From NCBI GenBank assembly GCA_017516465.1, contig JAFXCR010000015.1, forward strand, positions 1 to 53,416: 53,416 bases of DNA. Reading direction: 5' to 3'. Every line of letters begins with the position of its first letter. Positions within the stretch are counted from its first letter, which is position 1. Origin of the DNA: Ruminococcus sp. GTDB lineage: Bacteria; Bacillota; Clostridia; Oscillospirales; Ruminococcaceae. Below, one piece after another: positions 9,872-50,445 of the stretch. A program made the translations under genes and the position numbers. Under the pieces are notes generated by a model. That model saw nothing but the letters and a program-made list of their open reading frames with translations. It was not told where the DNA came from and made no database searches.

Positions 9872-10746
9872 TTAAGCTCCCACTCCTTGAGTTGTTTTGC
9901 CTCGTCGTACATCGTACAGTAGCTTGTGTGGCGGCTTTCAGAAATCTTTCCTTCACCGAGAGCTTCCAGCACCGCACAGCCTTTTTCGCAGGTGTGAGAG
10001 CAGTCCTTGAAGCGGCACTGATCGGTAAATTCAGCTATTTCACGGAAGCATCCGGCGAGTTCTTCCTTGCGGATGATATCGTAGCGGTTTGTCTCAAAGG
10101 TGGAGAATCCCGGAGTATCAGCGATATATCCACCGCTTTCAAGTTTGTAGAGTTCAGCGTGACGTGTCGTGTGGCGTCCTCTGCCGAGCTTTCTGCTTAT
10201 CTCAGCAGTCGGGATTTCAAGTGCAGGATCAACGGCATTGAGAAGTGTTGATTTTCCAGCACCGGAATTTCCTGTAAAGGCACTGATTTTTCCGGTAAGA
10301 AGATTCCTTATTGCGTCAATAGTATTTTTGTCATTGTAGTCGATTGATATAATATCAATGCCGATGCTTCCGTATATATCAATTATTTCGTGACTGCTTC
10401 CGAGGTCGGTCTTTGTAACGGCAACGACCGGCTTGATTCCCTTGTATTCTGCAATGGCAATGAATTTGTCAAGCAGAAGATAATTTGGTGCCGGATCGCA
10501 GGTGGAAACAATAAAAATAAGCTGATCGAGATTTGCAAGAGGGGGTCGGATAATGCAATTTCTGCGTTCAGCCACAGCGGTTATCACTTCGTCCTGAAAT
10601 TCCACGCTGTCGCCGACGCACGGACTTATGCCCTTGCTGCGGAAAACACCTCTTGCTTTGCAGCTGAATATGCCGTCAGGGGACTCTACTGTATAGAGTC
10701 CCCCTAAGCATTTCGTTATAATTCCGCTTTTTACAGTGCTGTTCAT
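9868..10746 (-). CDS. rsgA: ribosome small-subunit maturation GTPase RsgA
   Basis: 292 aa from the ATG at 10746, which overlaps the prkC stop by one base (TGATG). RsgA is a circularly permuted GTPase that checks late 30S assembly. After an OB-fold (VESPDGIFSCKARGVFR), the G motifs come in permuted order: G4 VAVTKTDL, then G1 GNSGAGKSTLLNAV, G2-region RGRHTTRHAELY, then G3 DTPGFSTF. The C-terminal zinc knuckle is CRFKDCSHTCEKGC. The frame is open 26 codons further upstream inside prkC, but that would give a non-conserved extension. Confidence 0.96.
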   Translation of the reverse strand: MNSTVKSGIITKCLGGLYTVESPDGIFSCKARGVFRSKGISPCVGDSVEFQDEVITAVAERRNCIIRPPLANLDQLIFIVSTCDPAPNYLLLDKFIAIAEYKGIKPVVAVTKTDLGSSHEIIDIYGSIGIDIISIDYNDKNTIDAIRNLLTGKISAFTGNSGAGKSTLLNAVDPALEIPTAEISRKLGRGRHTTRHAELYKLESGGYIADTPGFSTFETNRYDIIRKEELAGCFREIAEFTDQCRFKDCSHTCEKGCAVLEALGEGKISESRHTSYCTMYDEAKQLKEWELK

Positions 10747-13121
10747 CAATACCATACCCAGATGGTTTCGCCTGTATCCTGAGTTACCCAGTCGCCGTTT
10801 ACACCAGGCTGATATGGAATCCATTCTCCTGTGGTGAGGTGATATTCACCGTCAACACCGGGAACATATCCTGGCTGAGGCTCCGGAACAGTAGGTTCCT
10901 CAACAGGAGGCTCCTCAACAGGAGGCTCTGTTATTGGTTCAGTTTCAGGCTCTGGTTCAGTTTCAGGTTCTTCCGGTTCAGGGAATCCTCCTACAAGCAT
11001 GAAGGCATAGTCTACATCCTCGCTGATGGCATTAACACTGCCGGTAGCAAAGTTGAAGTAATATGATCCGATAGTTGCGATTGCACCTGTATTCAGATTA
11101 GTAAGCTTAACAGTTACAAGAACATTTTCGCCGGAACCCTTGATATCCTGAGTCCATGACGGCATTTCAGGAATGATAAGTGTACCTGATGAAGTTGTAG
11201 TTGTTCTGTTTTCCTCGCCCTTGAGGATGAAGTCAATAACGAATCTTCCGTTTGCTTCAACAGGGAAGTTTACAGTGAAAGGAATTTCACCGTCAGGGCT
11301 TACACCTGTACTGATGTAGAGGATGATTTCAGTACCCTGTTCAACCTTTTCTCCCTTTGCGATGCTCTGTTCAACAACCTTGCCCTCGTCCTCGTAGGAG
11401 TCCTTCATATCTGTCTTGACTTTAAGTCCCTTGTACTGAGCGATAGCAACAGCGTCCTTGGCTTCCATGCCTACATAGCTTTCAACTTCTATCTGCTCAG
11501 TGTTTGCACCCATGCTGACATATACAAGAACTGTTGTACCTTTGTGTACTTCTTCTCCGGCTTTGGGTTCAGTTTTGATTACATTGTTTTCCTTTATTAC
11601 GGGGTCTGATTGAGTGATAATTTCAGCTTTAAGCCCCTTCATATCAAGCTGATCCTCAGCAAGTGCCTGATTCATGTCAACTATATCAGGAACAGTAGTT
11701 TTTTCCTGTCCCTTACTGAGCTTTACTTTGAGTGTATCACCCTTCTTGTATTCTGAATCTGGATCAATACTCTGCCAGATAATTGTATTTTCATCAGCAG
11801 CATTATATTCATAGCCTTCGACTTCAAATTTGATGTTGTTGCCATATTTGCTCTGAGCAGTACTGTAATCCATGCCTGTGAAGTCCTGCATTTTATAGTC
11901 GTTCTTTGCCTTGTCGCCCTTAAGCAGACCGCTGAGCATAGTTGCAACGAAAATAACCGCAACGATAATTACTACTACTACAACTGCAGTAAGTACCGGA
12001 ATAACGAGTGATGAACGTTCCTCCTCATCATCGTCATCATCCTCATCATCATAATAATCCTTATAGGTGATAGGCTTCTGCTGAGGAAAATTACCGTATC
12101 TCTGAGCTGCTGAAGCTCCTGCGTATGCAGCTGCACCGACTCCGGCTGCAACTGCTGCTCCGTTAGAATTAAAAGCAGAATCGCTGCTGTCTGGGATATC
12201 ACGGTAAGCATCGTTGTTTACGGGTGAACTGAAGTTAATTGTATTTTCAGCAGGGGGGGTATCTTCCTCCTGATAGTATCCGAAGGTGATAGTGGGATCT
12301 ACCTTGAATTTTTCAATATCAGCGATCATATCGGCAGTTGAAGGATATCTGTCGTCAGGAGTCTTTTCCATAGCTCTGAGAACAATTTCTTCAAGACCGT
12401 CCGGAATATCAGGGTTGACAGCTCTGGGGCGTTCAGGGATATCGTGCATGTGCATAACTGCGATAGCAACCGGATTATCGCTGTCAAAAGGCTTTCTTCC
12501 GGCGAGCATTTCATACATCATTGCACCTACGGAATATATATCGCTCTTAGCGTCAGTAACGTTGCCGCTTGCCGGTTCAGGGCTGATATAGTGAACGCTT
12601 CCGATAGCCTGATCGGTAGCTGTTTTGCCTTCTTCACGGGCAAACTTGGCAATGCCGAAGTCCATGACCTTGATAGTGCCGTCAGTGAACATCATGATGT
12701 TCTGGGGCTTAATGTCACGGTGAACGATGCCCTTGTCATGGGCGTGCTGTAAGGCTCTGAGAATCTGTATCACGAAGTGAACAGTATCCTTCCATGTGAG
12801 GACTTTTTCTTCCTCGATGTATTCTTTGAGAGTAATACCGTCGATGTATTCCATGACGATATACTGAATCTTCTCAGAAAATCCGACATCATATATCTTT
12901 ACGATGTTGGGATGAGAAAGAACTGCAATTGCCTTTGATTCATTTCTGAATCTTCGTAGGAATTCTTCGTTTTCTGCATATTCTTTTTTCAGGATTTTGA
13001 TGGCTACGGTCTTGTTGTCGATAACATCAACGCCTTTGTAAACCTCAGCCATTCCGCCGACGCCGATAAGTTCTGTAATCTCATATCTTCCGTCGAGCTT
13101 TTTGCCAATGTTTTTATCCAT
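10746..13121 (-). CDS. prkC: PrkC-type transmembrane Ser/Thr kinase with PASTA domains
   Basis: 791 aa from the ATG at 13121 (AGGAGG). The cytoplasmic Hanks kinase has the Gly-loop GVGGMAEVYKG, HRDIKPQNIM, DFGIAK and the activation-end SPEP. An acidic and Ala-rich juxtamembrane stretch precedes one TM segment around residues 372-395. Three extracellular PASTA domains follow; such repeats bind muropeptides or lipid II. After these comes a beta domain not typical of PrkC, then a Pro/Glu-rich spacer (PETEPEPETEPITEPPVEE) and a C-terminal tail with two GEW/GDW-type repeats ending ETIWVWY. It is coupled to the phosphatase prpC 10 bp upstream. The role is control of growth, wall synthesis and, in sporeformers, germination. 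Confidence 0.96.
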   Translation of the reverse strand: MDKNIGKKLDGRYEITELIGVGGMAEVYKGVDVIDNKTVAIKILKKEYAENEEFLRRFRNESKAIAVLSHPNIVKIYDVGFSEKIQYIVMEYIDGITLKEYIEEEKVLTWKDTVHFVIQILRALQHAHDKGIVHRDIKPQNIMMFTDGTIKVMDFGIAKFAREEGKTATDQAIGSVHYISPEPASGNVTDAKSDIYSVGAMMYEMLAGRKPFDSDNPVAIAVMHMHDIPERPRAVNPDIPDGLEEIVLRAMEKTPDDRYPSTADMIADIEKFKVDPTITFGYYQEEDTPPAENTINFSSPVNNDAYRDIPDSSDSAFNSNGAAVAAGVGAAAYAGASAAQRYGNFPQQKPITYKDYYDDEDDDDDEEERSSLVIPVLTAVVVVVIIVAVIFVATMLSGLLKGDKAKNDYKMQDFTGMDYSTAQSKYGNNIKFEVEGYEYNAADENTIIWQSIDPDSEYKKGDTLKVKLSKGQEKTTVPDIVDMNQALAEDQLDMKGLKAEIITQSDPVIKENNVIKTEPKAGEEVHKGTTVLVYVSMGANTEQIEVESYVGMEAKDAVAIAQYKGLKVKTDMKDSYEDEGKVVEQSIAKGEKVEQGTEIILYISTGVSPDGEIPFTVNFPVEANGRFVIDFILKGEENRTTTTSSGTLIIPEMPSWTQDIKGSGENVLVTVKLTNLNTGAIATIGSYYFNFATGSVNAISEDVDYAFMLVGGFPEPEEPETEPEPETEPITEPPVEEPPVEEPTVPEPQPGYVPGVDGEYHLTTGEWIPYQPGVNGDWVTQDTGETIWVWY

Positions 13122-13131
13122 TTTGTTCCTC

Positions 13132-13857
13132 CTAATCCGATATGACAGCAACAGTAACATTATCGCTGCCACCCTTGCTGTTAGCAAGCTTTATCAATTC
13201 TTCTGCAACGTTATCAAAGGATGAGTTGAGAATAACGTTATACATTTCTTCGTCACTGCAATATCCTGAAAGACCGTCAGAGCATAGCAGCAGGCTGATC
13301 TTATCCTCGTAGTCAAGGATAAAGGTATCAGGGAGTACTGTTTTTTCTACTCCCACAGCTCTTACAAGCATATGCCGCTGAGGATGTTCTTCCATTTCCT
13401 CCTCTGTTATTTTCCCCTTTTCGTAGAGGAGGGCAGCTACATTATGGTCAGTAGTAACCTTTAGCAGATTTTTATCAGTAATAAGATACGCTCTGCTGTC
13501 GCCGACATTTATTATAAATGCCGATTTGCTGTTTATATATGCTGCAACGCAGGTAGTTCCCATACCGAAGTTCTTGAAATCAAGGCGGGCACGGGTATAT
13601 ATAACCGAATTAGCGGCAGAAACCGAGGATATGAGAAGCTTTCGGATCTGCTCATCATCAAGGCTTTCGGAGTATCCGGCAGAGAATCGCTGGAAAAATT
13701 CATCAATAGCGATGGTGCTTGCTTCTTTTCCGGCACGTTCACCACCCATACCGTCGCACACGACCGCAAGAACGTTATGACCGAAATATTCACATCTGAC
13801 AGCGTCCTGATTTTCGTCACGCTTCAGACCGATATCTGTTCCGAATCTGAATCTCAA
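13132..13857 (-). CDS. prpC: PP2C-family Ser/Thr phosphatase PrpC/Stp
   Basis: 241 aa. The metal-dependent PPM phosphatase reverses PrkC phosphorylation. Seen motifs: TDIGLKRDENQDA with the RxxNxD signature, AVVCDGMGGERAGKEAS, NVGDSRAYLI, TTDHN, LLLCSDGLSGY and GGSDNVTVAVI, which together provide the aspartates for the metal centre. It begins 4 bp inside the end of rlmN (ATG at 13857, rlmN stop 13854) and is followed closely by prkC, the usual Firmicute pair. Confidence 0.97.
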   Translation of the reverse strand: MRFRFGTDIGLKRDENQDAVRCEYFGHNVLAVVCDGMGGERAGKEASTIAIDEFFQRFSAGYSESLDDEQIRKLLISSVSAANSVIYTRARLDFKNFGMGTTCVAAYINSKSAFIINVGDSRAYLITDKNLLKVTTDHNVAALLYEKGKITEEEMEEHPQRHMLVRAVGVEKTVLPDTFILDYEDKISLLLCSDGLSGYCSDEEMYNVILNSSFDNVAEELIKLANSKGGSDNVTVAVISD

Positions 13858-22864: not shown

Positions 22865-25345
22865 TTAGCCTTTAACGAAATCCTTAGGATCGAGAGAAGT
22901 TACCGACTTAAGGAGGTACTTCTGGATCTGGAGAGCATCGTTATTTGTAAGACCAGTGCCGTTTTCGTAAACGTCAGCGTTAGCCTTACCCTGGTCTGTG
23001 ATCTTATACTCATCGGGGTTACCGAGAGACTGGAGAATGAGGATAGCGTCGTTCAGGAGAACCTGATCGTCACAGTTTGTATCGCCCCAGAGAGTTGCGC
23101 CGGGAACTGGATCATCTGTAATCGGATCGTCACCCTTATAAGGCTCAACATCAGGATAGAGAAGTGCCATACCACCGTAGGACATAAGAGCGTCACCCAT
23201 ATGCCAGAATCTGTGGAGCTTGAACTTGTAGCCTGTTGTTTCCTTAGTATCGTCGTAAACCTTCTTGAGTTCCTGGAACATAGGATCCTTCTCGTAGTTC
23301 TGACGGATGGAGATAAATGTAGCACCATTCTCGAGCTTAGAACCGTCAGGCATTTCGCCCTTGTAGTTTGTAGGAATGTAAACATCCTGTGTGAATACTC
23401 TCTTAAGGCTTCCGTTGCTGTCTTCGAATGCAAGACCGATATCGTCACGGCCTTCATTCCACTGCATTGTGAGGAGCTTGTTAGCAAGACGGAGACCCTT
23501 AGCAGCTACTGAATCATCCTTAGCTGTATCTGCCTGAGCTTCAGAAGCAGGAATGCCCTTAGCAGCAGCGTAGTAGATAAGAGTGTTACAGAGTGAAGAT
23601 ACACAACCGATATCTCCCTGACCGTAACCACCGATTGTACAGTGGAGGTTCTGGTTGCCGTTAGGATCGTATTCACCTGTCCATGTATCGGGTGCACATG
23701 AGTAGTCTGTATCATTATCGCCCCAGTCAAGAGTTGAAGGAATAGCGTAAGAAAGGGTTCTTCCATCCTCAGTAACGTAATCGAATACTGTTTCCTCTTC
23801 AAACCAAGAGATCCATCTTTCAAGAACAGCATCGAGAGCGTCTTCGAGTGACATACCAGCAGGCTTAACATTGCTCTTGTCGCCCTTTGTAACTACATAG
23901 TAGTAGAGCTCAGCAAGACGCTGTGTTGACCATACCTGGTTACCAATCCAGTGGTTTGAACCAGGGTCAGCATATACAGGGTGAGGAACATAAACCATTT
24001 TGTAGAATGTCGGGTATCCGCTCGGATACTTCTCGTAACGTCCTCTGTAAGAGTTTGTACATCCGCCTGCGAAAGGACCTTCAACAGACTGGAGCCAGAG
24101 GTACATTTCAATCTGTCTCTTGAGAGACTCTTCGTAGTCATCTGTAGCCTTAGAAGACTGCATACCACTGTTGATCCACTCGTCAGTGATAAGAGCGTAA
24201 GCAGCAAGGGGATTCTGGTAGAACTGATGTGAATGTGAACAACCGATCTGCCATGCCCAGTCATATTTATCAAGAGCACCGCCCCATGATGTATACCAAG
24301 CCATGAGGTAATGCTGAGACTTTGTACCAGCACTTCCGGAAGCCATAATATCCTGACAACCGATTTCGTGGTAGTACTTATCGAACATATCGTTACGGCA
24401 CTGGTCACCCATCTTACCAGCAAGACCTGAGAGTTCACCGCAGTCAACGCCCCACTGATTTGCAAAGTAGATTGCCTGAATAGCACGGTCCTCAGCGTCA
24501 GGAGCGTTTGTGAAAGCGTACTGAGCAGCAACGTTTCCTACGCCGTTGAAGATACCCTTGATACCGTCAGTTGTGTTACCATACTTGAGTTCTTCGATAC
24601 ATGGATGAGGAACTGTTTCGAAACATGATTCCTGCTCACCACGCTGGAATGTATTGATGAATGTGAAGTTGCCGCTGCCGCCGCCGAAGCCATACCAGTC
24701 ATCAACGTCAGCGAGCCAGTGCATGAGGTAGTAACCTTTATCTCCACCGTAAGAAGACTTCATTTCAGAGAAGATAGGGTTGATAGCGTCTACGCCGGCA
24801 TTGGATGTAGGATACTCCTGAGGAGTGTCAAGTTCCTTAGCTGTATCAGCCTTAAGTCTTGACTGTGTCCAGAGTGAGTCATACTTGATTGTGTTGTTGA
24901 TGCCTGAAGCCTCAGACCAACCAGGAATGATAGCTTCGAGAGTTTTCCAGCCCTTTTCGAGATCGCCAGCACTACCGTCAATAGTACCCTGCTCAACGAG
25001 TACATCGTGCATAGCTGTTACCCAAGCAATGTAGGACATAGCTTCTGATGTTGTTTCGTGACCGTAGTCAGGAGCCTCGATAACGAGAGTTTCCTTAGCG
25101 TGGTAAGGAATACCGAATGAATCGCCGCCATTGTTCTGCTTGCTGAGATAGCCGCTTGCCTGACCGTTAGTGATAACGTCATCGTAAAGTGACTCGAACA
25201 TTGCAGCGTAGCTTTCGTTAGCACCGTTTTCTGTTGCGTACTTAGTCGGTTCAGCAGCTGAGCCCATAGCAGGCATTACAGCTGAAGCGGAAGTAGCTGC
25301 TGCGAGAATTCCGGCAACGAGAGCCTTGTTCTTTTTGCTAATCAT
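22865..25345 (-). CDS. GH48 cellobiohydrolase with C-terminal dockerin
   Basis: 826 aa. Family 48 processive cellulases release cellobiose from chain ends and are usually the dominant exo-enzyme of cellulosomes. A signal peptide (KKNKALVAGILAAATSASAV, residues 4-23) is followed by the GH48 (alpha/alpha)6 barrel to about residue 735. The motif APDYGHETTSEAMSYIAW (92-109) contains the predicted proton-donor Glu101. Later motifs include YLMHWLADVDDWYGFG and GNQVWSTQRLAELYYY. A short linker, DDPITDDPVPGA, leads to a type I dockerin (754-815): a first calcium loop, GDTNCDDQVLLNDA, with Asp replacing the usual Gly6, and a second, expanded loop, DVYENGTGLTNNDA. The ribosome-binding site is GAGAGGGG. 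It is monocistronic with a strong promoter and a structured leader. Confidence 0.97.
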   Translation of the reverse strand: MISKKNKALVAGILAAATSASAVMPAMGSAAEPTKYATENGANESYAAMFESLYDDVITNGQASGYLSKQNNGGDSFGIPYHAKETLVIEAPDYGHETTSEAMSYIAWVTAMHDVLVEQGTIDGSAGDLEKGWKTLEAIIPGWSEASGINNTIKYDSLWTQSRLKADTAKELDTPQEYPTSNAGVDAINPIFSEMKSSYGGDKGYYLMHWLADVDDWYGFGGGSGNFTFINTFQRGEQESCFETVPHPCIEELKYGNTTDGIKGIFNGVGNVAAQYAFTNAPDAEDRAIQAIYFANQWGVDCGELSGLAGKMGDQCRNDMFDKYYHEIGCQDIMASGSAGTKSQHYLMAWYTSWGGALDKYDWAWQIGCSHSHQFYQNPLAAYALITDEWINSGMQSSKATDDYEESLKRQIEMYLWLQSVEGPFAGGCTNSYRGRYEKYPSGYPTFYKMVYVPHPVYADPGSNHWIGNQVWSTQRLAELYYYVVTKGDKSNVKPAGMSLEDALDAVLERWISWFEEETVFDYVTEDGRTLSYAIPSTLDWGDNDTDYSCAPDTWTGEYDPNGNQNLHCTIGGYGQGDIGCVSSLCNTLIYYAAAKGIPASEAQADTAKDDSVAAKGLRLANKLLTMQWNEGRDDIGLAFEDSNGSLKRVFTQDVYIPTNYKGEMPDGSKLENGATFISIRQNYEKDPMFQELKKVYDDTKETTGYKFKLHRFWHMGDALMSYGGMALLYPDVEPYKGDDPITDDPVPGATLWGDTNCDDQVLLNDAILILQSLGNPDEYKITDQGKANADVYENGTGLTNNDALQIQKYLLKSVTSLDPKDFVKG

Positions 25346-39973: not shown

Positions 39974-41539
39974 TTATTGTTGTTCAGAAGTCTTCTGTTG
40001 GCTTGATTCATTTTTTGAAACTTCCCGACTTCTTTCTGCTTCTTCAGCCTTTTGTCGCTCTCGCTCTGCTTCCTCAACCTTTTGGCGTTCTTGTTCTTCA
40101 TATTTTGAGCCCATAGCCAGTTTGGTAAACTTAAAATCAAGCTCAAGGTTTTCGATTTCAGTGAGTAGTTTCTGTTTTTCAATTTCGCAGGCAGTTTTTT
40201 TAGCGTCAGTCAGAGTTGATTTTTTTTCTTCAAGTTCAAGCTGAGTCAGTTCATCGTTGAATCTTGCCAATGTGTCATCAATATCGACAGTACCGTCTGC
40301 TTTTGTAAGCTCCATTGTACTATAATATGTCTTGCTGTTTTCGGCTTCTTCAAGAGAGAATGCAACAGGAGCTTTTTTACCGATATATAACCGGAGTCTG
40401 CGCTGGAATGATGCGTCGTATGGTAAAGATATCTGGTTGAGAATCTCGCCGGTTGTCTCGTAGCTGTTGTGAACTTCGACGGTATATTCCTCTGTCGGAG
40501 ATGCCTGATTCCATGGATATATAGACCATGGGGTGATGTACCAGACGTCGCTTTCTGTTTCATAGCTTTCTGAGAAAATTTCAGTTTTGTTCATGACTTC
40601 CGGTGATTCAAGCGATATATAAACCGGACCGTCACTGTAAAAGACATTTTCCCATGAATCCCTTTCGATGGGCATTTTTTCACCATCGCCATCTGTATAC
40701 ATGATATCGTAATAGTAATCGCCGCCGTAATTATAGCGGTAGTAGATTACATCTGTCTGTATCGTTGATGTGGTATTGCCTTCCTTATATAATGAGATGT
40801 TTGAAAAGCCAGCAACTGATAAAGGATTTCCATCTTTATCGGTAAGCATACCGTCAGAATCACATTCAAATGAAGCGGCTACGGTATCGAGGTTGCCATA
40901 TTCATATAAGAACATGGTAGAGAACATCGCAGTAGTAGAGACTTCATCTGAAGAAAAGCTGACTCCGGTTTCAGCCACAGCAACAATATTTTCTTCGGAG
41001 TAGGTATCATGATACTGGACTGCATATACCTGATTTGTTCTGAGTCCGCCGACAATCTTTGTAAATATCCGCACATTCATATCAGATGTACTTTTTCTGA
41101 ACGGACAGCTGTAAAGAGGTGTAACAAGAACATCACGGCTGATGTAGTCGCTCAGAGGCATATTTTCGATATAATAGCTTCCGGATTCTGTTTCCTCCTG
41201 AATTTCCTTGAGGAGTCCGGAGAAATCTGTGACCTCTGAGGAACTTGAGTCGGAGTCACGCAGACTGTTTATGATGGCGGTTTTGGGAATTACGCCTATG
41301 CAGAGGACGATAGCCGCCGCCGCAGACACCCATCTGAATACAGGAGGAAATCTGCGTTTTCCCGTTACGTTTTCAAGGTCGCTTACGGTAAGCCCGCAGT
41401 CGGAAAAATCCGAATCCTTTTCAGGAAAAGCTCTTGCGGAAATTTTGTTAAAGCAATCCACAGAGGTTGAAAGTTCATTCATTTTCTCTTTCAGTAATTT
41501 TTCAAATTCCTGATTTGAATTGAAGTCATTCTTTTTCAC
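39974..41539 (-). CDS. probable anti-sigma factor, membrane-anchored
   Basis: 521 aa. No family domain is clearly recognised. The cytoplasmic N-terminus of ~85 residues includes FEKLLKEKMNELSTSVDCFN and would bind the sigma factor. One TM segment (WVSAAAAIVLCIGVIPKTAI, ~90-109) is followed by a ~330-residue extracytoplasmic domain rich in Tyr, Ser and Asp. The last ~90 residues form a charged coiled coil with EEAERERQKAEEAERSREVS and a Gln/Ser tail. It starts in a 4-bp ATGA overlap with the sigma gene stop, which is the main evidence for its role. Confidence 0.7.
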   Translation of the reverse strand: MKKNDFNSNQEFEKLLKEKMNELSTSVDCFNKISARAFPEKDSDFSDCGLTVSDLENVTGKRRFPPVFRWVSAAAAIVLCIGVIPKTAIINSLRDSDSSSSEVTDFSGLLKEIQEETESGSYYIENMPLSDYISRDVLVTPLYSCPFRKSTSDMNVRIFTKIVGGLRTNQVYAVQYHDTYSEENIVAVAETGVSFSSDEVSTTAMFSTMFLYEYGNLDTVAASFECDSDGMLTDKDGNPLSVAGFSNISLYKEGNTTSTIQTDVIYYRYNYGGDYYYDIMYTDGDGEKMPIERDSWENVFYSDGPVYISLESPEVMNKTEIFSESYETESDVWYITPWSIYPWNQASPTEEYTVEVHNSYETTGEILNQISLPYDASFQRRLRLYIGKKAPVAFSLEEAENSKTYYSTMELTKADGTVDIDDTLARFNDELTQLELEEKKSTLTDAKKTACEIEKQKLLTEIENLELDFKFTKLAMGSKYEEQERQKVEEAERERQKAEEAERSREVSKNESSQQKTSEQQ

Positions 41540-42126
41540 TTGTCTGCACCTGCCTTTTCCTGTAAAATATTCATTGCACGTTTGTACCTTGATTTAACCG
41601 TAGTTTCGGGACATTTCAGAGTTTTTGCAATTTCTTTGAACGTCATTTCAGCACAGCATTTCATGATAATGATCTGCCGCTGTTTGTCATTCAGATGCTT
41701 TAAAAGCTGATTTATATAAATACTGTCCTCGACAGTTTTTTCAGCGTCGCCGTAGCTCTGGATTATATAGCTGTTGATTTCTTTTTTATAGCGCCGGCGA
41801 AGCTCTGATGCAACGTTGCGTGCGGTTGTGATGATGAATCCCTTGCCGTCACCCTTATGCGGGTTGAAATTTTTCACCTGAGTTAGTCTTACAAAGGTTT
41901 CTGCGACGCAGTCCTCTGAAAGGTGATAATCGGCTGTAATACCATAAGCTACTGCAAAAACAGTAGATTTGAACATGATATACAGTTTTTCAAGACTGTC
42001 TCTGGAGGTGCTGCAGGTGGATATCAGCAGATTGACCTCACCTACATCCTGAGATGATATATTGTTATGATTGAATGCAAAAATGATAAGGTCACCTCCG
42101 GGATTTGTCTTAGTATTGGCAAGCAT
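41536..42126 (-). CDS. ECF-type RNA polymerase sigma factor
   Basis: 196 aa. Sigma region 2 spans SLEKLYIMFKSTVFAVAYGI and DYHLSEDCVAETFVRL. Region 4 spans LNDKQRQIIIMKCCAEMTFK and EIAKTLKCPETTVKSRYKRA, a helix-turn-helix. The start at 42126 has AGAGGGTGAG upstream. An N-terminal extension of ~35 residues before region 2 is not conserved. It is coupled to the anti-sigma gene by overlapping stop/start codons. The target regulon is unknown; autoregulation is likely. Confidence 0.9.
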   Translation of the reverse strand: MLANTKTNPGGDLIIFAFNHNNISSQDVGEVNLLISTCSTSRDSLEKLYIMFKSTVFAVAYGITADYHLSEDCVAETFVRLTQVKNFNPHKGDGKGFIITTARNVASELRRRYKKEINSYIIQSYGDAEKTVEDSIYINQLLKHLNDKQRQIIIMKCCAEMTFKEIAKTLKCPETTVKSRYKRAMNILQEKAGADK

Positions 42127-43298: not shown

Positions 43299-45461
43299 AT
43301 GAGCGATATCCATGCAATTATCAGAAGTCAGATAAAACAGCCCCTATGGGATAACTGGTACATAAAAGAAGAACTTGGCAGGGGAGCAACCGGTGTAGTT
43401 TACCGGATTGAAGCCAAAAGAGAAAACAGAACAGATGTGTCTGCTCTCAAGATAGAGCCTATTGTTGCAGACGATGCAATATATGTCGATGAAGTTAAAA
43501 GGCGTGAATATCTTGACAGAAAACGCAAAGAAGCTGAAAATGAAACCGCTATCATGTACAAGCTTCGTTCATCGCCCAATATCGTCCTTTATGAGGATGA
43601 AAGTATCAAGCCGCTTATAGTAGACAACAAGCAGATAGGATACTATATCATGATACGAATGGAGTGTCTTGACTGTCTGCAAAAACAGATGAAACAGAAA
43701 CGATTTGATACTTCTGAAAAAAATGTCCTGAAAATGGCTATTGACATCGGAAGCGGAATCAAAGCGGCTCATGAGCTTGGCGTTATTCATCGTGATGTTA
43801 AGCCGGGAAATTTCTTCGTATCGGACAACGGAACCTATAAGCTGGGTGACTTCAATATTTCCAAGAAATCCGTTTCCACGAGATCCTTTGCCGGCACAGA
43901 AGGATATATCGCTCCGGAGATATACTACGCACGATATGGAAGCGACGGGTATACCAAGCAGGCTGATATTTATTCCTTCGGTATTTCTCTCTACTGCATA
44001 ATGAATAATTATCAGTTTCCTTTCGGTGATATGTGTCTGCCGGAAGAAGCAATCGAAAGACGTATGAACGGTGAAAATCTTCCTCGTCCAAAGAACGCTT
44101 CAGAAGCATTCGCAAAGGTGATTCTGAAAGCCTGTGCTTTCAATACGGCTGACCGATATCAGAATATGACCAATATGCTGAACGATCTTAAGGCTGTAAG
44201 AGACGGAAATATTAATCCTCATGTACAGCAGCCAGTGGTTTACGTTCCGCCGCAGCCTATGCCTCAGCCTATACCACGACCAATACCTCAGCCGGAGAGT
44301 TATGATAACAGAAGTTCAGCGGCGACAAAGGTTATCCTTGCGTGCGGAATTGTAATTCTGCTGGCGATACTGACTATACTTGTAGTTTTTCTTGTAAAGG
44401 ATCGCAGTGAAGAAAAAGACAGAGCGAGTGATACTCCCGTGATTGTCGAGCCAGAAGCAACGGAAGAACCGGAAACTACTGAGCCTGACAAAACCATAGA
44501 GCCGGAAGAAACCTCTGTTACAGAGATAACAACAAGAACAACTGAAACTACTACAACTACCACTATTGCCGAAACTACTGCCATGATGACCACGACAACG
44601 GCTCCGGTAACTACATCGCCAACGGTATTGTCGATTCCGATGGACTCAAGAGGCGTCGGAAGCGGAAATGTCATAAACGGCGGTTATGCGGCAACGGATG
44701 GAAATACTCTCTACTACTCCGATGAGACTGAATGTATATATGCTGTGAAAAACGATGTAAAAGAACCGATATACAATACAAGAGCAAGCTGCATTAATGT
44801 AGTGGGAGATAACCTTATCTTCTGCAACTGGAGTGCCGGAAATTACATATGCAGTATCCGTAAGGACGGCAACGGCTTCAACATACTCAATCCGGCATAC
44901 TGCTATGAGCTGACGTATTACGACGGCTGGCTGTACTTTACAGAGGTGACTGATCCCAATAATCACGGTACAGGAAATTATATATGCCGTATGAAACCGG
45001 ATGGCTCAGAGTATACACGTCTCAGGCAGGTACATTGCTGGTATATGAATGTTGCTGACGGAAAAATCTTCTATGTGAACTACAATAATAACTTCTCACT
45101 TGATGTCATGAATGTAGATGGCAGCGGTCATACTGTTGTAAAGGATAATGTTTCTGATATCTGTGTATCAGGCGGCAGGATATATTATTCCCACAGCAGG
45201 AATGACAGATATCTTTATTCCATGAATTACGACGGCTCTGACAACTATCTCATAAGGGACGGATATACAAAGTGTATCAATGTGATCGGAAATACCATAT
45301 ACTGCGTTGATGAAAACGATCATCTTATGGTTATAGACCTTGCAAATTCTTCCGGACTGGTTTATCCTGATCTTGGATATGTCGGATATCCGGTTGTTGT
45401 AGGTTCAAATCTGTATTCTATGGACAAGAATAATAATATAAGAATATATACATTTGAGTAG
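43299..45461 (+). CDS. transmembrane Ser/Thr kinase with extracytoplasmic DUF5050-like propeller
   Basis: 720 aa (AAGGTG upstream). The cytoplasmic Hanks kinase spans ~20-300: Gly-loop LGRGATGVVYR, VAIK-equivalent SALKIEP, HRDVKPGN with HRD at 164-166, and GTEGYIAPEIY. The DFG motif is DFN (184-186), keeping the metal-binding Asp. A Pro-rich stretch (PPQPMPQPIPRPIPQP) leads to one TM segment at ~345-366, then a Glu/Thr-rich linker (~370-445). The outer ~270 residues hold repeats of the type (I)YYSDE.., FCNWSAGNYICSIRKDG, LYFTEV.., YICRMKPDG, typical of DUF5050 six-bladed propellers. It is probably a receptor kinase; ligand unknown. It faces the two dockerin genes across a shared terminator. 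Confidence 0.9.
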   Translation: MSDIHAIIRSQIKQPLWDNWYIKEELGRGATGVVYRIEAKRENRTDVSALKIEPIVADDAIYVDEVKRREYLDRKRKEAENETAIMYKLRSSPNIVLYEDESIKPLIVDNKQIGYYIMIRMECLDCLQKQMKQKRFDTSEKNVLKMAIDIGSGIKAAHELGVIHRDVKPGNFFVSDNGTYKLGDFNISKKSVSTRSFAGTEGYIAPEIYYARYGSDGYTKQADIYSFGISLYCIMNNYQFPFGDMCLPEEAIERRMNGENLPRPKNASEAFAKVILKACAFNTADRYQNMTNMLNDLKAVRDGNINPHVQQPVVYVPPQPMPQPIPRPIPQPESYDNRSSAATKVILACGIVILLAILTILVVFLVKDRSEEKDRASDTPVIVEPEATEEPETTEPDKTIEPEETSVTEITTRTTETTTTTTIAETTAMMTTTTAPVTTSPTVLSIPMDSRGVGSGNVINGGYAATDGNTLYYSDETECIYAVKNDVKEPIYNTRASCINVVGDNLIFCNWSAGNYICSIRKDGNGFNILNPAYCYELTYYDGWLYFTEVTDPNNHGTGNYICRMKPDGSEYTRLRQVHCWYMNVADGKIFYVNYNNNFSLDVMNVDGSGHTVVKDNVSDICVSGGRIYYSHSRNDRYLYSMNYDGSDNYLIRDGYTKCINVIGNTIYCVDENDHLMVIDLANSSGLVYPDLGYVGYPVVVGSNLYSMDKNNNIRIYTFE

Positions 45462-45467
45462 ACGAAA

Positions 45468-45491
45468 AAACGGTGCTGAAAAGCACCGTTT
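45468..45491. terminator. shared terminator between kinase and dockerin genes
   Basis: AAACGGTGCT/AGCACCGTTT stem with GAAA loop and A/T runs on both sides, between convergent genes. Confidence 0.85.
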
Positions 45492-45501
45492 CGTTTATAT
45501 A

Positions 45502-46515
45502 TTATTCAGGCTTCAGAAGCTTTCTCTGTATAGTAAGAGCGTCAAGGTTTGTGATACCGTCAAAGTCACCGGCGATATCAGCGTTGTATTCGCCCTGAGC
45601 TGTAAGCTTGTATACGTCTGGATTTCCTATCGTCTGCATGATTGTAATTGCATCGGAAAGAGCAAGGTTTCCGTCATCGTTGGCATCGCCTTTGATGTTG
45701 TTGTGGAGGTCGATAAATGTGCTTTTTTCGTTACCGCCTGAAGCGTAATGCCATATAAACTGATTAAAACCTAAATCATCTTGTATTTGCTTGGAAAGGG
45801 CAGCGAGATCAGCTGTTGAAATTTCCTCGTCCGGGATAACAGCTACGCTGAACTGTGTTTTTTCAATATGACATTTCAGGTCAATATTGTTTATATACTG
45901 TTCAAGCTGTTCGATTTCTTCAAGATCATCCGTAGGGTGAATCAAGAAATCTGTTATATAAGTCTGACCACACGATGCAAATACAGGATTCTTTTCATAA
46001 TTAAAAGAATGAATATCCGCAATCTCACCTAACTTTTTATAAATTTCAACAGCCTGCTCAAATTTGATTTCTTTTTTATAGGATTCTTCAAACGGAATTT
46101 TATCCTGCTTTGAGAAACCGAAAATACTTATAGAACATAAGCCGTTAGCTTCCTCCGACTTGGAAATTTCAACTTCCGGAAGAAGCTCCTTAATAATAGT
46201 CTCAGCCTTATCAAGGTCAGATTCATTCATTTTTATATTCACTTTGTTCGGTTCGCAGTATACAGCCCGACCAAATCCGATGTCTATATAATCATAAGTA
46301 CCAAACGAGCCAGGCTTATCACTTTTAGTCAGATATACATTGTTTATATAATAGGTTTCGTTTAGAGGAATATAGTATTCGCTGTTTGCGATTTTTTCTG
46401 CTATAACATCCTTATCACAAGCTCCTTCATCAGCACCGGCAGAAAGCGATGAAACAGCACCAGCTGTGATTACGGATGCAAGAAACATTGCGGATAATTT
46501 CTTAGTTTTTTTCAT
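45502..46515 (-). CDS. secreted dockerin protein A, unknown N-terminal domain
   Basis: 337 aa. A signal peptide (KKLSAMFLASVITAGAVSSL) is followed by ~245 residues of no recognised family, Glu/Lys/Ile-rich with cysteines. The C-terminal type I dockerin is at 276-337 (GDANDDGNLALSDAITIM; ADIAGDFDGITNLDALTIQ), with Asp/Asn calcium ligands at positions 1, 3, 5 and 12 of the first loop and an expanded second loop. It has AAGGAGGT and starts 35 bp after dockerin protein B, so the two form an operon. The dockerin DNA is almost identical to that of B. It is expected to be exported and held by a cohesin. Confidence 0.88.
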   Translation of the reverse strand: MKKTKKLSAMFLASVITAGAVSSLSAGADEGACDKDVIAEKIANSEYYIPLNETYYINNVYLTKSDKPGSFGTYDYIDIGFGRAVYCEPNKVNIKMNESDLDKAETIIKELLPEVEISKSEEANGLCSISIFGFSKQDKIPFEESYKKEIKFEQAVEIYKKLGEIADIHSFNYEKNPVFASCGQTYITDFLIHPTDDLEEIEQLEQYINNIDLKCHIEKTQFSVAVIPDEEISTADLAALSKQIQDDLGFNQFIWHYASGGNEKSTFIDLHNNIKGDANDDGNLALSDAITIMQTIGNPDVYKLTAQGEYNADIAGDFDGITNLDALTIQRKLLKPE

Positions 46516-46744
46516 AGTGATACCTCCTTGAAATTTATTTTCAGTTATACTTATTCAAGGCCAAGAAGCTTTCTCTGAATTGCAAGAGCGTCTGCGTTGG
46601 TGATACCGTCAAAGTCTCCGGCGATATCAGCGTTGTATTCGCCCTGAGCTGTAAGCTTGTATACGTCTGGATTTCCTATCGTCTGCATGATTGTAATTGC
46701 ATCAGAAAGAGCAAGGTTTCCGTCATCGTTGGCATCGCCTTTGA
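45551..46744. repeat. 145-bp near-identical dockerin-coding repeat pair
   Basis: Copies at 45551-45695 and 46600-46744 differ at only two positions by eye (GTCACC/GTCTCC and CATCGG/CATCAG), while the preceding N-terminal coding regions are diverged. Confidence 0.9.
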
Positions 46745-47654
46745 CGTTTGCGTGCATTTCAACAGAATAATCAGGTGTGTCAATAGGCTGTGTTTCTTTT
46801 TCAGGTCTAAAAACAGCAAATAAACCTTCGGTGATTCGTGCGATATCGTTGCAGATTGTCCAATACTCTGCCTCAGTATACTCCTTTGTCTGTTTCAAAT
46901 CACAGTATACCCATTCTATCTTCGGACAATCATCGGTTTCGCTGTGGCCTTCACGTTCAATGCATTCCTTGGAATTAGAATACTCCTTCGGAATATACTC
47001 AAAACCGGCACCTGTTTCTTCCAGATATGCGTCAAGAGCTTCGAGATTTTTTACAGGAAACATTGCGTAATCAAGAGAACCCACAGTATAAACTGCCTTA
47101 AAGGTCGGACCGTAATATTTGAATGTTTCGATGAAAAGATTATTTTCTGCAATAGTATTGTATATCAGGTTTATAAGCTCATCGCTCATGTATCTGCATG
47201 AATCAATGCCATAAGAAATATGGTAATTTCTGCCTCCGGATTCGTTAATTCCGGAGAGAATCAACTGTAAATCCGGATCGATTGAAGTAATAAGTTCGGT
47301 AACAAGTTTTTCCTCCGTTTCCTTTGACGTCCGGAAGTATATATAGTCATATCCTGTCTTATCTACATGTATTCCACTGAAGGTGCGTACATAGGATGTT
47401 TTTTCGTCAGAAACCGGTTTATAGTATGCACAAAATCTGTCTTCAAGAGAGTTATCAAGAATTAAGCCATGGTGTCCGTTATCGTACGCAAGATGAGCAG
47501 AAGACATTTTTACATAACCGCTGTCAATGAGGTACTGCTCATAATCCTCGTATGTTTTCGATATAGTACCGGCAGAAGCAGACATGGAAGTAAGAGAACC
47601 TCCGCATATGGTCAGTACAGATATAAGGGACAATATTCTTTTAGTTTTTTTCAT
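46551..47654 (-). CDS. secreted dockerin protein B, unknown N-terminal domain
   Basis: 367 aa. A signal peptide (RILSLISVLTICGGSLTSMS) is followed by ~270 residues of unrecognised sequence. Their order of segments (a ...PDLQLILSGIN stretch, then ISYGIDSCRYMSDE, then NLEALDAYLEETG) parallels protein A (LLPEVEISKSEEANG, SISIFGFS, EEIEQLEQYINN), so they look like diverged paralogues. The C-terminal dockerin is at 306-367 (GDANDDGNLALSDAITIM; GITNADALAIQRKLLGLE). AAGGAGGAA precedes the ATG. It is the first gene of a two-gene unit with a full-consensus promoter. Confidence 0.88.
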   Translation of the reverse strand: MKKTKRILSLISVLTICGGSLTSMSASAGTISKTYEDYEQYLIDSGYVKMSSAHLAYDNGHHGLILDNSLEDRFCAYYKPVSDEKTSYVRTFSGIHVDKTGYDYIYFRTSKETEEKLVTELITSIDPDLQLILSGINESGGRNYHISYGIDSCRYMSDELINLIYNTIAENNLFIETFKYYGPTFKAVYTVGSLDYAMFPVKNLEALDAYLEETGAGFEYIPKEYSNSKECIEREGHSETDDCPKIEWVYCDLKQTKEYTEAEYWTICNDIARITEGLFAVFRPEKETQPIDTPDYSVEMHANVKGDANDDGNLALSDAITIMQTIGNPDVYKLTAQGEYNADIAGDFDGITNADALAIQRKLLGLE

Positions 47655-47689
47655 GATGATTCCTCCTTAATTTTGGGATTCGAGTTTAC

Positions 47690-47714
47690 AGGTGTATGAA
47701 AAAAGGTACACCTT
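47690..47714 (-). promoter_or_regulatory. hairpin at the 5' end of the dockerin-pair mRNA
   Basis: On the minus strand AGGTGTACC and ATACACCT flank TTTTTTC, forming a hairpin just downstream of the predicted transcription start (near 47719). It could stabilise the mRNA or serve as an operator. Confidence 0.45.
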
Positions 47715-47725
47715 TCCTTATACTT

Positions 47726-47754
47726 ATTATATGATAGATAGTTTGAGATGTCAA
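47726..47754 (-). promoter_or_regulatory. full-consensus promoter of the dockerin pair
   Basis: Perfect TTGACA (47749-47754), 17-bp spacer, perfect TATAAT (47726-47731) on the minus strand. Confidence 0.85.
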
Positions 47755-47825
47755 TTTGCATAACACATGAATTTCCGGACTTGTTTTTGTGTATAAAACT
47801 GAAAACAGACTTCTCGTGAAAAAGA

Positions 47826-47858
47826 ACAACGGCACACAGAAAATTCCGGTGCCGTTGT
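47826..47858. other. strong isolated hairpin in the divergent intergenic region
   Basis: ACAACGGCAC pairs with GTGCCGTTGT; on the minus strand TTCTTTTT follows, so it resembles a leftward terminator although no leftward gene precedes it. From 47859 to 48006 I see only AT-rich sequence, apart from a doubtful 24-codon frame at 47877-47951. Confidence 0.5.
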
Positions 47859-48006
47859 CCTTTAAGGGTGGTTTATATGAAATTGTGGATGTCTTTACTT
47901 TACAATGAAATTATAACAAGCTATTATGTTCGTTTTGTGATACTTTTCTGAAAGTAAATGAAATTAAGGTGTTATCTTAAAATCGTGAATTGATATATTA
48001 TCAGGG

Positions 48007-48035
48007 TTGATTATCAGGAGAAAATGTGATATAAT
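48007..48035 (+). promoter_or_regulatory. promoter of the dockerin kinase operon
   Basis: TTGATT (48007-48012), 17-bp spacer, TATAAT (48030-48035), the same form as the promoter of the other kinase at 43180. Confidence 0.7.
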
Positions 48036-48088
48036 ATATAAAAAGTGTTTTTCGTGATAACTTAATAATAAGGGGATGAATAAGATTT

Positions 48089-49609
48089 ATGATTGATTTC
48101 CGAGCAATTATTGATGAAATACCTCAGCCGCTATGGGGGAGCTGGTATATCAAGGATAAAATTGAATCAGGAGTCCACAGTGAAGTTTACAGAATTGAAG
48201 CAGTGAAATCGGAGAGAATTGACTATTCTTCTCTTAAAATACAGCCGATTGTGATTGACAATGATGATATAACATACAGCGAGGAGCAGGAAAAGGCTCT
48301 TTTGGAGGAAATGCGGCAGGAAGTTATTAAAGAGAATATGGTGATGCACAAGCTTATAAAATGTCCGTATATCGCCGGATATCTTGACGAGGATATTCTT
48401 CCACTCAGCTGTATGAACGGATATGTACTGCTGATACGCACTGAATATCTTATGGAGCTTCCTGCACTTATGCAAAAAGGCGGATTCAATCCGACAGAAG
48501 ATAATATTCTGCGTCTGGCGTCTGATATAGGCAGAGGACTTAATGCTGCACATAAGCTGGGAATACATCATCGTGATATAAAGCCGTCAAATTTCTTTGC
48601 GGCACCGGACGGAACCTTTAGACTTGGCGATTTTAATATCTCTGGTTCAAAAGAATCATTGCGTACAGCTTCCGGAACAGCCGGATATATAGCTCCGGAA
48701 ATATACAATTCAATAAATACCAGAGATGTTGAATATACTGATAAAGCTGATATATATTCATTCGGAATGTGCCTTTATCAACTTATGAACGACTTTTTCT
48801 TCCCGTTTGAGGAAGAATGCAGTACAGAGCAGGCAGTTGAAAGACGAATGAACGGTGAGTTGCTTAAGCTTCCGAAAAATGCTTCTGTTGATTTCGGACG
48901 GATAATATTCAGGGCGTGTGCATATGATCCGGCAATGAGATACAACAATATGGATGAAATGCTCCGTGATCTTGAAAATCTCAGGGCTTGCCGAAGTGCA
49001 GGAATACCAGACGGTATGCGGACTTTTCCTGAAAACAACACTGTTTATGCAGATGCTTCGGAATCATCCGGCAGTGGGAATTTTCAGCCTGTTCCTGTAA
49101 GAAAGCTTCCTGAAAATAATACAGTCCATGCAGATTCTGCGGAGCCAAGTGACAAATTGGATATACGTTCAATCCCGTTGGAGCCGGAATTGGAATTTCA
49201 TAAATCCCACTTTAAGAGGGAGAAAAAAAGAAAATCGTCAAAGCGTATAATGATTATTCTGATTCTTGTGGTAATTGCAATAATTATTTTCCTACTTACG
49301 AGAAAAGATGACAACGATGATAATAACAGAAACAGAAAATCCGGCTCTGCATATTCTCTTGGCGATGTAGATGGCGACAGTGTAATAACTGAATCTGATG
49401 CTTCCTTGCTGCTCAAGGAATATACTCTTATCAGTGCAGAGAAAAGCTCGTTTTCTGAAAAACAGATCAAAGCATCAGATATAAACGGAGATGGCTTTGT
49501 TAATGGAGTAGATGCAACGCTTCTGCTTGGATATTGTACATATAAATCGGAACTTGATTCTGAGGAAAAGGCTATGACGCTGAAGAAATGGCTTAAGGAA
49601 AAGCAATAA
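48089..49609 (+). CDS. transmembrane Ser/Thr kinase with extracytoplasmic dockerin
   Basis: 506 aa. The Hanks kinase domain spans ~20-300: HRDIKPSN with HRD at 161-163, DFN at 181-183 in place of DFG, and GTAGYIAPEIY. The Gly-loop is degenerate (ESGVHSEVYR) but the Lys is kept in SSLKIQP. The opening QPLWxxWYIK is shared with the kinase at 43299. A polar juxtamembrane region with a repeated PENNTV(Y/H)AD motif and basic KREKKRKSSKR precede one TM segment at ~387-403. Outside follows a type I dockerin (425-487): GDVDGDSVITESDASLLLKE and SDINGDGFVNGVDATLLLGY, both loops with full calcium ligands. It differs in type from the dockerins of the GH48 and of proteins A and B. The PP2C gene follows after 23 bp. 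The ribosome-binding site (AGGGG) is rather distant. Confidence 0.9.
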   Translation: MIDFRAIIDEIPQPLWGSWYIKDKIESGVHSEVYRIEAVKSERIDYSSLKIQPIVIDNDDITYSEEQEKALLEEMRQEVIKENMVMHKLIKCPYIAGYLDEDILPLSCMNGYVLLIRTEYLMELPALMQKGGFNPTEDNILRLASDIGRGLNAAHKLGIHHRDIKPSNFFAAPDGTFRLGDFNISGSKESLRTASGTAGYIAPEIYNSINTRDVEYTDKADIYSFGMCLYQLMNDFFFPFEEECSTEQAVERRMNGELLKLPKNASVDFGRIIFRACAYDPAMRYNNMDEMLRDLENLRACRSAGIPDGMRTFPENNTVYADASESSGSGNFQPVPVRKLPENNTVHADSAEPSDKLDIRSIPLEPELEFHKSHFKREKKRKSSKRIMIILILVVIAIIIFLLTRKDDNDDNNRNRKSGSAYSLGDVDGDSVITESDASLLLKEYTLISAEKSSFSEKQIKASDINGDGFVNGVDATLLLGYCTYKSELDSEEKAMTLKKWLKEKQ

Positions 49610-49632
49610 ATCGTGTCTTATGAGGAGATAAT

Positions 49633-50445
49633 ATGAGAGAAACAAAGAAATATGCGGCAGGATTTCCTGTCTTTGTGAGCATTGCTGCCAATAAGGGCAA
49701 GGTGAGAACTGCTAATGAAGATAACTTTTATGCTGATATACTCGGAATCCGTGAGGCGGAAAATCTCTGCGGTCACCGTGTTCTGAGCCATTCGGACAGT
49801 TATGTATTCGGAGTCTGTGACGGTATGGGTGGAGAACAGTTCGGGGATATCGCATCTGAGCTTGCCGTACTTGCAATGAAGGATTTTTCGGATAAAATCA
49901 AGAACTCTTCTCCGGAAATGCTTCATACTGTGGTAAATGAATATTCCTGCGAAGCAAACAACAGAATCTGCCGTATGACAGAGGAACGTCAGGCTGAACT
50001 CAGCGGAAGTACCTTTGTTATGGCGTGCGTCAGGGAAAATCTTGCGTATACATTCAGCATAGGCGACAGCAGAATCTACTATATTGATGAGAATGGTATA
50101 CGTCAGGTTTCTGAGGATCAGACGCTGGCTATGAAGAAGCTGAAGGCGAATATATACACCGAAGAGGAAGCAAAAATGAGTTCGGACGCTCATAAGATCA
50201 CAATGTTCCTTGGCGTGGACAGCAGAAATATTGGCTTGAAGGCTCTTGCGTATGAGCCTCTTGATATCAGCAGAGGACAGCTTCTCCTTTGCAGTGACGG
50301 TCTGACGGATATGTGTACAGATGAGGAGATTCTCATGGTTATGACAAAATATAACGATGAATTCGCTGCACAGCACCTCGTTGAACTTGCTCTTGCACGA
50401 GGCGGTATTGATAATATTACCTGTTTGATAATCCGAAGAATATAA
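49633..50445 (+). CDS. second PP2C-family Ser/Thr phosphatase
   Basis: 270 aa, GAGGAG upstream. PPM motifs: KVRTANEDNFYAD, FGVCDGMGGEQFGDIASE, FSIGDSRIYYI, LLLCSDGLTDM and GGIDNITCLII, giving a complete metal centre. It is about 30 residues longer than PrpC at 13132-13857, mostly in an insert after the first motif (LGIREAENLCGHRVLSHSDS). It probably dephosphorylates targets of the dockerin kinase upstream, and perhaps of the propeller kinase (inference from operon). Confidence 0.93.
   Translation: MRETKKYAAGFPVFVSIAANKGKVRTANEDNFYADILGIREAENLCGHRVLSHSDSYVFGVCDGMGGEQFGDIASELAVLAMKDFSDKIKNSSPEMLHTVVNEYSCEANNRICRMTEERQAELSGSTFVMACVRENLAYTFSIGDSRIYYIDENGIRQVSEDQTLAMKKLKANIYTEEEAKMSSDAHKITMFLGVDSRNIGLKALAYEPLDISRGQLLLCSDGLTDMCTDEEILMVMTKYNDEFAAQHLVELALARGGIDNITCLIIRRI

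Follow-up and report, generated by a model that had tools for sequence, protein, structure and literature searches.

A predicted Ruminococcus receptor kinase bearing a dockerin of the ScaE-binding class

Dockerins are the plugs normally used for building the fibre-degrading cellulosome. Here we describe K2, a gene in which such a module is joined to a transmembrane Ser/Thr kinase, along with its neighbours, namely a second kinase (K1), two secreted dockerin proteins (A and B) and a PP2C phosphatase, all on a stretch of 53,416 nucleotides from Ruminococcus sp. (assembly GCA_017516465.1, contig JAFXCR010000015.1), hereafter called the window. The PASTA kinases PrkC and StkP unite a Hanks kinase, one membrane helix and an outer sensor part and have a PP2C neighbour, and K2, with its Hanks kinase, one predicted helix, outer part and adjoining PP2C gene, is built along similar lines. 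Unlike them, however, K1 and K2 fall far under the cut-off of the NCBIfam PASTA kinase model PknB_PASTA_kin (104.6 and 92.7 bits, respectively, against 450); the PASTA kinase of this genome lies elsewhere in the window (10746-13187, 549 bits) and has its own PP2C, the pair spanning 10746-13857.

A second likeness leads to Mycobacterium tuberculosis, where Rv1747 is a single chain. The abstracts of PMC3908365 and PMC5549992 describe it as an ATP-binding cassette (ABC) transporter with two forkhead-associated (FHA) domains in an operon with the kinase PknF, and the sister kinases of K2 likewise adjoin genes for an FHA-ABC protein and a permease, usually with a PP2C. In contrast to Rv1747, FHA-ABC and permease are separate genes in the Ruminococcus loci. 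K2 itself departs further from the PknF-Rv1747 pair: its outer domain is a dockerin, and searches of the window genome (G000, a 1.99-Mb draft of 55 contigs, 95.25% complete) did not find the FHA-ABC exporter, returning two other FHA proteins only.

With regard to cellulosome control, K2 is reminiscent of the RsgI anti-sigma factors of Acetivibrio, membrane receptors that are thought to couple the biomass outside to the inside of the cell (PMC11557425, in part). RsgI senses polysaccharide and acts on a sigma factor, whereas K2 would have a kinase inside and a dockerin outside; dedicated RsgI polysaccharide receptors are, in the same portion of that source, a matter of Acetivibrio-type systems only. 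Regulation of the Ruminococcus cellulosome is yet to be understood according to an excerpt of PMC4081043, and in R. flavefaciens FD-1, scaE and cttA are apparently regulated apart from scaA, scaB and scaC (PMC2721979, in part), such that the supply of anchors and that of cellulosomes can diverge.

In excerpts of PMC5301203 and PMC2930009, R. flavefaciens dockerins are sorted into groups that differ in their partners: ScaA and certain ScaB cohesins for group 1, ScaC for groups 3 and 6, and ScaE for groups 2 and 4. K2 shares its dockerin class with the FD-1 group-4 proteins of the same sources (ScaH, ScaF, peptidase-Doc, and the XDoc of CttA and ScaB) and differs from them in being a membrane kinase and in lacking their Gly-Arg pair. 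No title or abstract opening returned by searches of the open-licence literature named a dockerin-bearing Ser/Thr kinase, and the word "kinase" is absent from the main texts (as distinct from the supplements) of PMC2930009, PMC4081043, PMC2721979 and PMC11557425. A passage of PMC8542988 pairs "dockerin" with "kinase domain", but the kinase there is a histidine kinase. If the reading that we develop below is true, a kinase plugging into the anchor would offer a direct feedback route on the cellulosome, with a cohesin-dockerin pair used for signalling instead of assembly, and the cell may sense the condition of the sites to which its cellulosomes attach. The comparison also brings to light a wider Ruminococcus family of receptor kinases with swappable outer domains.

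The K2 fusion and the class of its dockerin

An earlier sequence-only reading of this region had described two kinases flanking two dockerin proteins and followed by a PP2C, one kinase exposing a DUF5050-like domain and the other a dockerin. All five genes were recovered at their places (Table 1), and Pfam bore out both outer domains: K1 scored 114 bits on Pkinase and 104.4 bits on DUF5050, and K2 scored 85.6 bits on Pkinase (cut-off 31.7) and 42.8 bits on Dockerin_1 (cut-off 22.9). K1, too, has a predicted membrane helix between its kinase and its outer part. As judged by alignment, K2 retains the catalytic residues K50, E82, D163 of the HRD motif, N168 and D181 of a DFN motif, while its glycine loop reads as degenerate; the first four are invariant in all 18 aligned family members, and D181 is present in both K1 and K2. 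By Pkinase score and catalytic residues, K1 and K2 are Hanks-type Ser/Thr kinases with predicted activity. The adjoining phosphatase passes the Pfam PP2C cut-off and stays under that of the NCBIfam Stp1/IreP model (157 bits against 230).

Among 125 genomes of the genus, K2 was found in three, all of them metagenome-assembled genomes (MAGs): that of the window, RGIG6339 from sheep rectum and RGIG4258 from roe deer colon. Since the same in-frame fusion of kinase, membrane segment and dockerin recurs in all three, an assembly artefact is an unlikely source. Purifying selection acts about equally strongly on the K2 dockerin and on the kinase domain: across the three species pairs, the 65 codons of the dockerin gave ratios of nonsynonymous to synonymous substitution rates (dN/dS) of 0.15, 0.13 and 0.15, the kinase domain gave 0.15 each time, and the linker plus membrane segment gave 0.43, 0.40 and 0.39, values that are rough owing to high dS (0.84-1.62 in kinase and dockerin). 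One might argue that the dockerin arrived by a chance fusion and has no function, as its restriction to so few genomes and the long stem branch (0.66) of the K2 clade in our kinase tree would allow. Yet the fusion is in frame in three species, dN/dS in the dockerin (0.13-0.15) lies well under that of the linker (0.39-0.43), and most calcium-loop residues are identical among the three K2 dockerins, which together render this explanation very improbable.

The class of the dockerin is firm at the level of sequence models, whose seeds were assigned to classes by eye. On a group-4 model made from seven group-4-like dockerins of this genome, K2 excluded, the K2 dockerin scored 68.6 bits, versus 12.6 and 12.5 bits on the group-1 (four dockerins of this genome) and group-6 models. 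The orthologues reached 61.1 and 74.8 bits on group 4, with all three copies at 12.0-24.7 bits on the other two. Controls left out of their own model scored 64.8-99.8 bits on it and at most 28.0 on others, the seven group-4 controls among them reaching 79.2-92.0 and at most 21.4. The FD-1 ScaH dockerin, which is reported to bind ScaE by enzyme-linked immunosorbent assay (PMC5301203, in part), obtained 66.3 bits on the group-4 model, and the CttA dockerins 43.1 (this genome) and 25.6 bits (FD-1). Among the seven seeds is one taken from a papain-like peptidase that bears a dockerin (L192, 3273-6500); the FD-1 peptidase-Doc is reported to bind ScaE in the same source. The two repeats of the K2 dockerin are alike, as in group 4, and in the PDB its top match from Ruminococcus is 8ajy_B, the dockerin of ScaH, with two "serine protease" entries scoring slightly higher. 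We therefore place it in the ScaE-binding (group-4) class, from which the surface anchor ScaE is predicted as its exact partner.

Such an anchor is encoded in the window genome. Contig C18 encodes the end of a CttA-like protein and, after it, an open reading frame (ORF) of 314 aa that is 40% identical to FD-1 ScaE over its residues 1-201 and matches 8ajy_A, "Cell-wall anchoring protein", from the same PDB entry that has the ScaH dockerin as chain B. The genome as a whole yields 66 Dockerin_1 matches at E up to 0.1 and five cohesin matches, three of them above the cut-off. A row of scaC-, scaA- and scaB-like genes on contig C12, broken off by the contig end, is read as the start of a scaC-scaA-scaB cluster.

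A kinase family with exchangeable outer domains

K1 and K2 are members of a transmembrane Ser/Thr kinase family of Ruminococcus in which the outer domains are interchangeable. Close matches, often in several copies, were confined to a subset of the genus in a search of 80 relatives, and 30 of the 125 genus genomes had a kinase match at E up to 1e-60, with at most 12 candidates scored per genome. A scan of an 84,980-species collection with two short patterns, which can miss members, gave 63 loci from named genomes, several sharing one genome and R. flavefaciens FD-1 included; their labels read Ruminococcus, Oscillospiraceae, Clostridia or Clostridiales, with one exception. A contig labelled Alistipes senegalensis (L161) carries a short kinase of the Ruminococcus family, for which mis-binning is the likely cause. 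Pfam analysis of 71 ectodomains found DUF5050 (12), Big_2 (10), LRR_5 (7), Lectin_C (7), NADase_transloc of the F5/8 type C kind (6), DUF6273 (5), VanY (3), Dockerin_1 (3) and SH3_3 (2), the remaining families being rare or of low complexity; the tally gives no count of members without a hit. A custom hydropathy scan saw no convincing membrane helix in some other members, so that some relatives may not be membrane proteins.

This breadth qualifies one observation of the sequence-only reading, which had linked K1 and K2 through a shared QPLW..WYIK start and the DFN variant. Both features are indeed present in the two kinases, but they mark the whole family and no special tie, as they are invariant or nearly so throughout: all 18 aligned members have P14, W16, W19, F182 and N183, and at least 90% have D181.

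In a tree of 70 kinase domains, K1 groups with the DUF5050 kinases. The three dockerin kinases form one clade (support 100/100) at the end of their long stem, nested within a ten-entry clade of exporter-linked kinases (100/99), four entries of which are their sisters (98/90). The FHA-ABC gene adjoins six of the seven members other than K2; for the seventh, L102, the contig ends too soon. The four sister entries and two further ones in the ten-entry clade bear a lectin-type outer domain resembling the Pfam Lectin_C of L073 (L111 is the same contig as L073); the L102 kinase copy is cut at the contig end, and L106 is without the lectin-type domain. Because the sister entries carry lectin-type domains, the K2 dockerin probably replaced such a domain, with much the same spacing from the membrane. 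Apart from the three K2 copies, no dockerin was seen on a kinase among 34 kinase ORFs of the 29 loci retrieved from the genus genomes, the matches that came without a locus having been reread in part, and the ORFs of L071-L163 held no further kinase-dockerin fusion.

Near the kinase, 17 of the 63 named loci encode the double-FHA ABC ATPase protein, a lower bound as many other contigs are short; 16 of these 17 have a matching permease and 15 a PP2C. Within the five genomes of the window's clade, direct search located the exporter in RGIG6339 alone. We considered whether K2 might act through this exporter in the window species and dropped the idea, the exporter not having been found in that genome.

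Several members of the family were conspicuous in their own right. The kinases at L088 (6163-8289), which has a Pfam VanY domain, and L089 (7793-9895), similar to it in sequence, have GFN in place of DFN and may be pseudokinases. Short family kinases of 232-263 aa occur near dockerin proteins at L095 (7706-8479), L096 (1-696, truncated at the contig end), L097 (6703-7494) and L098 (6510-7283), the neighbour in L097 being a Cthe_2159-type carbohydrate-binding protein with an N-terminal dockerin. Large dockerin proteins adjoin K1-type kinases in L073 (3584-6013), L074 (13007-15418) and L077 (305-2932), the last of these a GH9-CBM3 protein.

Docking on ScaE as a possible input

The sequence-only reading had proposed that a kinase is coupled to surface cohesins, with A and B taking part. 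Its kinase half has gained substance: an intact, selectively maintained dockerin lies beyond the predicted helix and is of the ScaE-type class, ScaE is encoded in the genome, and PP2C adjoins K2 in all three species that have it. We put at roughly 0.5 the probability that K2 is a receptor kinase that docks on an anchor cohesin of the ScaE type and signals its state, PP2C then acting as the reset. K2 would be a single-pass receptor kinase from a family with swapped outer domains, in whose lineage a group-4 dockerin took the place of the probable lectin-type domain of an exporter-linked kinase. Its dockerin would dock on ScaE, or on a related anchor cohesin, while the site is free of ScaB or CttA; docking would change the clustering or state of the kinase, and the adjoining PP2C would reset its targets. 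Since the tether between membrane and dockerin measures only some 20 residues by hydropathy scan, K2 would meet ScaE near the membrane, e.g., before or during anchoring.

A more specific version, which we advance tentatively, would make K2 a receptor of anchor vacancy: K2 would compete with ScaB and CttA for ScaE cohesins, probably newly secreted ones before or during sortase anchoring, and its output would report empty sites, matching the production of scaffoldins and enzymes to anchoring capacity.

Several observations weigh against docking on ScaE as the input of K2. The kinase was found in just 3 of 125 genomes and not in two near relatives in which K1 is retained. At the recognition positions, where FD-1 group-4 dockerins have a Gly-Arg pair, K2 has Glu-Ser and Gly-Val; CttA and the other group-4-like dockerins of this genome are without Gly-Arg as well, but K2 differs from them too. 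Only C-terminal stretches of ScaE, of 73-93 residues and in one case at a contig end, are seen in the other two K2 species. The short tether may fall short of wall-anchored ScaE, the AlphaFold model of the K2 dockerin is poor (predicted local distance difference test score [pLDDT] 47.2 from three sequences), and the 18-residue tail past the dockerin is without clear constraint (dN/dS 0.84 in one pair, undefined in two). To these comes the roughness of dN/dS at such high dS.

The drifted recognition positions might instead mean that K2 binds another cohesin than ScaE, on an adaptor or a stand-alone protein of the ScaG or ScaH kind, all the more as the cohesins of ScaG and ScaH, too, are recognized by group 4 in FD-1, if less strongly in the arrays (PMC5301203, in part). 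We think this unlikely, as the FD-1 dockerins of group 4 have ScaE as their common partner in the same source and as CttA of this genome, an expected ScaE binder, scores with the class of K2.

The main rival, which we regard as possible though doubtful, is a passive tether: the dockerin would only place the kinase at ScaE, or hold scaffoldins near the membrane, and kinase activity would be independent of cohesin. Conservation of the dockerin as a module would fit, and a short linker suits holding proteins at the membrane. What argues for an input is that the same slot in the family is filled by varied recognition and enzyme domains (lectin, F5/8-type, DUF5050, SH3, VanY), as varied inputs would be, and that K2 keeps its catalytic residues and its PP2C.

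Neighbouring genes and the hairpin beyond K1

Table 1. Features of the K1-K2 region; positions refer to the window
Feature	Position	Strand	Size and basis
K1, transmembrane Ser/Thr kinase with DUF5050 ectodomain	43299-45461	+	720 aa; Pfam
A, secreted protein with group-1 dockerin	45502-46515	-	337 aa; class model, PDB match
B, secreted protein with group-1 dockerin	46551-47654	-	367 aa; class model
Conserved hairpin and flank, beyond A and B in the window	47819-47893	+	folding versus shuffles; comparison of relatives
K2, transmembrane Ser/Thr kinase with predicted extracellular group-4 (ScaE-type) dockerin	48089-49609	+	506 aa; Pfam, fusion in three species
K2 cytoplasmic kinase domain (predicted topology)	48089-49003	+	alignment; dN/dS 0.15 in 3/3 species pairs
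K2 single predicted transmembrane helix, residues 386-404	49244-49300	+	mean hydropathy 3.21 over 19 residues (custom script)
K2 dockerin module, start about 20 residues past the predicted helix	49355-49549	+	class model, dN/dS
PP2C phosphatase, 23 bases 3' of K2	49633-50445	+	270 aa; Pfam PP2C, 48.9 bits

The dockerins of A and B are of another class than that of K2. Both fall under the Pfam Dockerin_1 cut-off (14.6 and 10.6 bits against 22.9), score 85.7 and 84.9 bits on the group-1 model against 6.6 and 6.7 on group 4, and conform to the definition of group 1 by its IMQ..NP and AL.IQ segments and unusual 13-residue second loop (PMC2930009, in part) in their segments and model score. A, the one of the two that was searched, has as its best PDB match 5m2o_B, "Group I Dockerin" (E 2e-14). 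Elsewhere in the window (22865-25345), a protein with a group-1-like dockerin matches CbhB at 474.7 bits, below the cut-off of 1950.

Of the sequence-only reading, the proposal that fared worst was that A and B, as soluble ligands of the kinase dockerin or as its competitors, form one module with K1, K2 and PP2C. The five genes are adjacent in the window, L107 too has between K1 and K2 an A-like gene (44% identical), which may thus be old there, and A and B are divergent from K2; for A, moreover, loss elsewhere may stand in place of insertion here. On the other side, A and B should not compete with K2, being of a different dockerin class, which in FD-1 recognizes the cohesins of ScaA and ScaB and not that of ScaE (PMC5301203, in part). 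A gene of this type lies between K1 and K2 in two of the three K2-bearing species (window and L107) and not in the third (L115), and of 16 family members above 80 bits in five clade genomes (G000, G110, G011, G127 and G153), three lie between K1 and K2 and 13 on contigs other than those of the kinases. The N-terminal part of B, finally, is nearly identical to its RGIG6339 counterpart (L231, 1501-2604), with a dS of 0.115, far under the values of K1 (1.07) and PP2C (1.48) for the same species pair, which points to a recent exchange. We accordingly consider one five-gene module highly improbable, and A and B are probably outside the kinase module.

The dockerins of A and B are 92% identical, that of B being closer to A's than to that of its RGIG6339 counterpart, consistent with gene conversion. 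AlphaFold gave the N-terminal part of A a pLDDT of 52.7 with some alpha/beta segments. A promoter-like match of 12 out of 12 lies upstream of B, in a scan by consensus match only that returned 30 sites in total versus 22.5 expected.

What remains of the supposed island of five genes is its kinase-phosphatase part. The sequence-only reading was to fall if the genes were not kept as neighbours in related genomes; this is so in part for A and B, which are not kept in all three K2-bearing species, and not for K1, K2 and PP2C, which stay neighbours in each of them. K1 orthologues were found in four other species, two of them without K2: in the genomes of L112 and L114 (G127 and G153 by contig match, both 99% complete), K1 was the only one of the two kinases to turn up, so that K2 was presumably lost there or never present. 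In L114, K1 is inverted relative to PP2C, and a Cthe_2159-type carbohydrate-binding protein (10336-12531) stands beside K1, with none at that place in the window.

Downstream of K1 we noticed a hairpin with a conserved flank, which folds better than 200 of 200 shuffled sequences (z -3.2) and was not flagged by the terminator scan. It directly follows K1 in L112 and L114, where its 16-base core lies 54 and 44 bases, respectively, from the K1 stop codon; the core is 0.3 kb after K1 in L115, 1.3 kb in L107 (beyond the A-like gene) and, past A and B, about 2.4 kb in the window. The core was present in 16 of 248 loci, all of them overlapping views of the K1 region in five species. Rfam at its gathering thresholds returned only the already known tRNA.

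The simplest reading would be that the A/B genes were inserted between K1 and the conserved element. Other readings may hold: the terminator scan places another terminator-like hairpin directly after K1 in the window (45468-45491), L107 has a similar one, K1 is turned round relative to PP2C in L114, and, for A, the other species may have lost an A-like gene. With this second hairpin in mind, we give less weight to the idea that A and B cut K1 off from a terminator of its own.

On the other side of K1, window positions 39974-42126 encode a sigma-70-family sigma factor and a 521-aa protein without a Pfam match, which is perhaps the anti-sigma factor of the adjoining sigma factor; counterparts of both occur near K1 in L107, L112 and L114.

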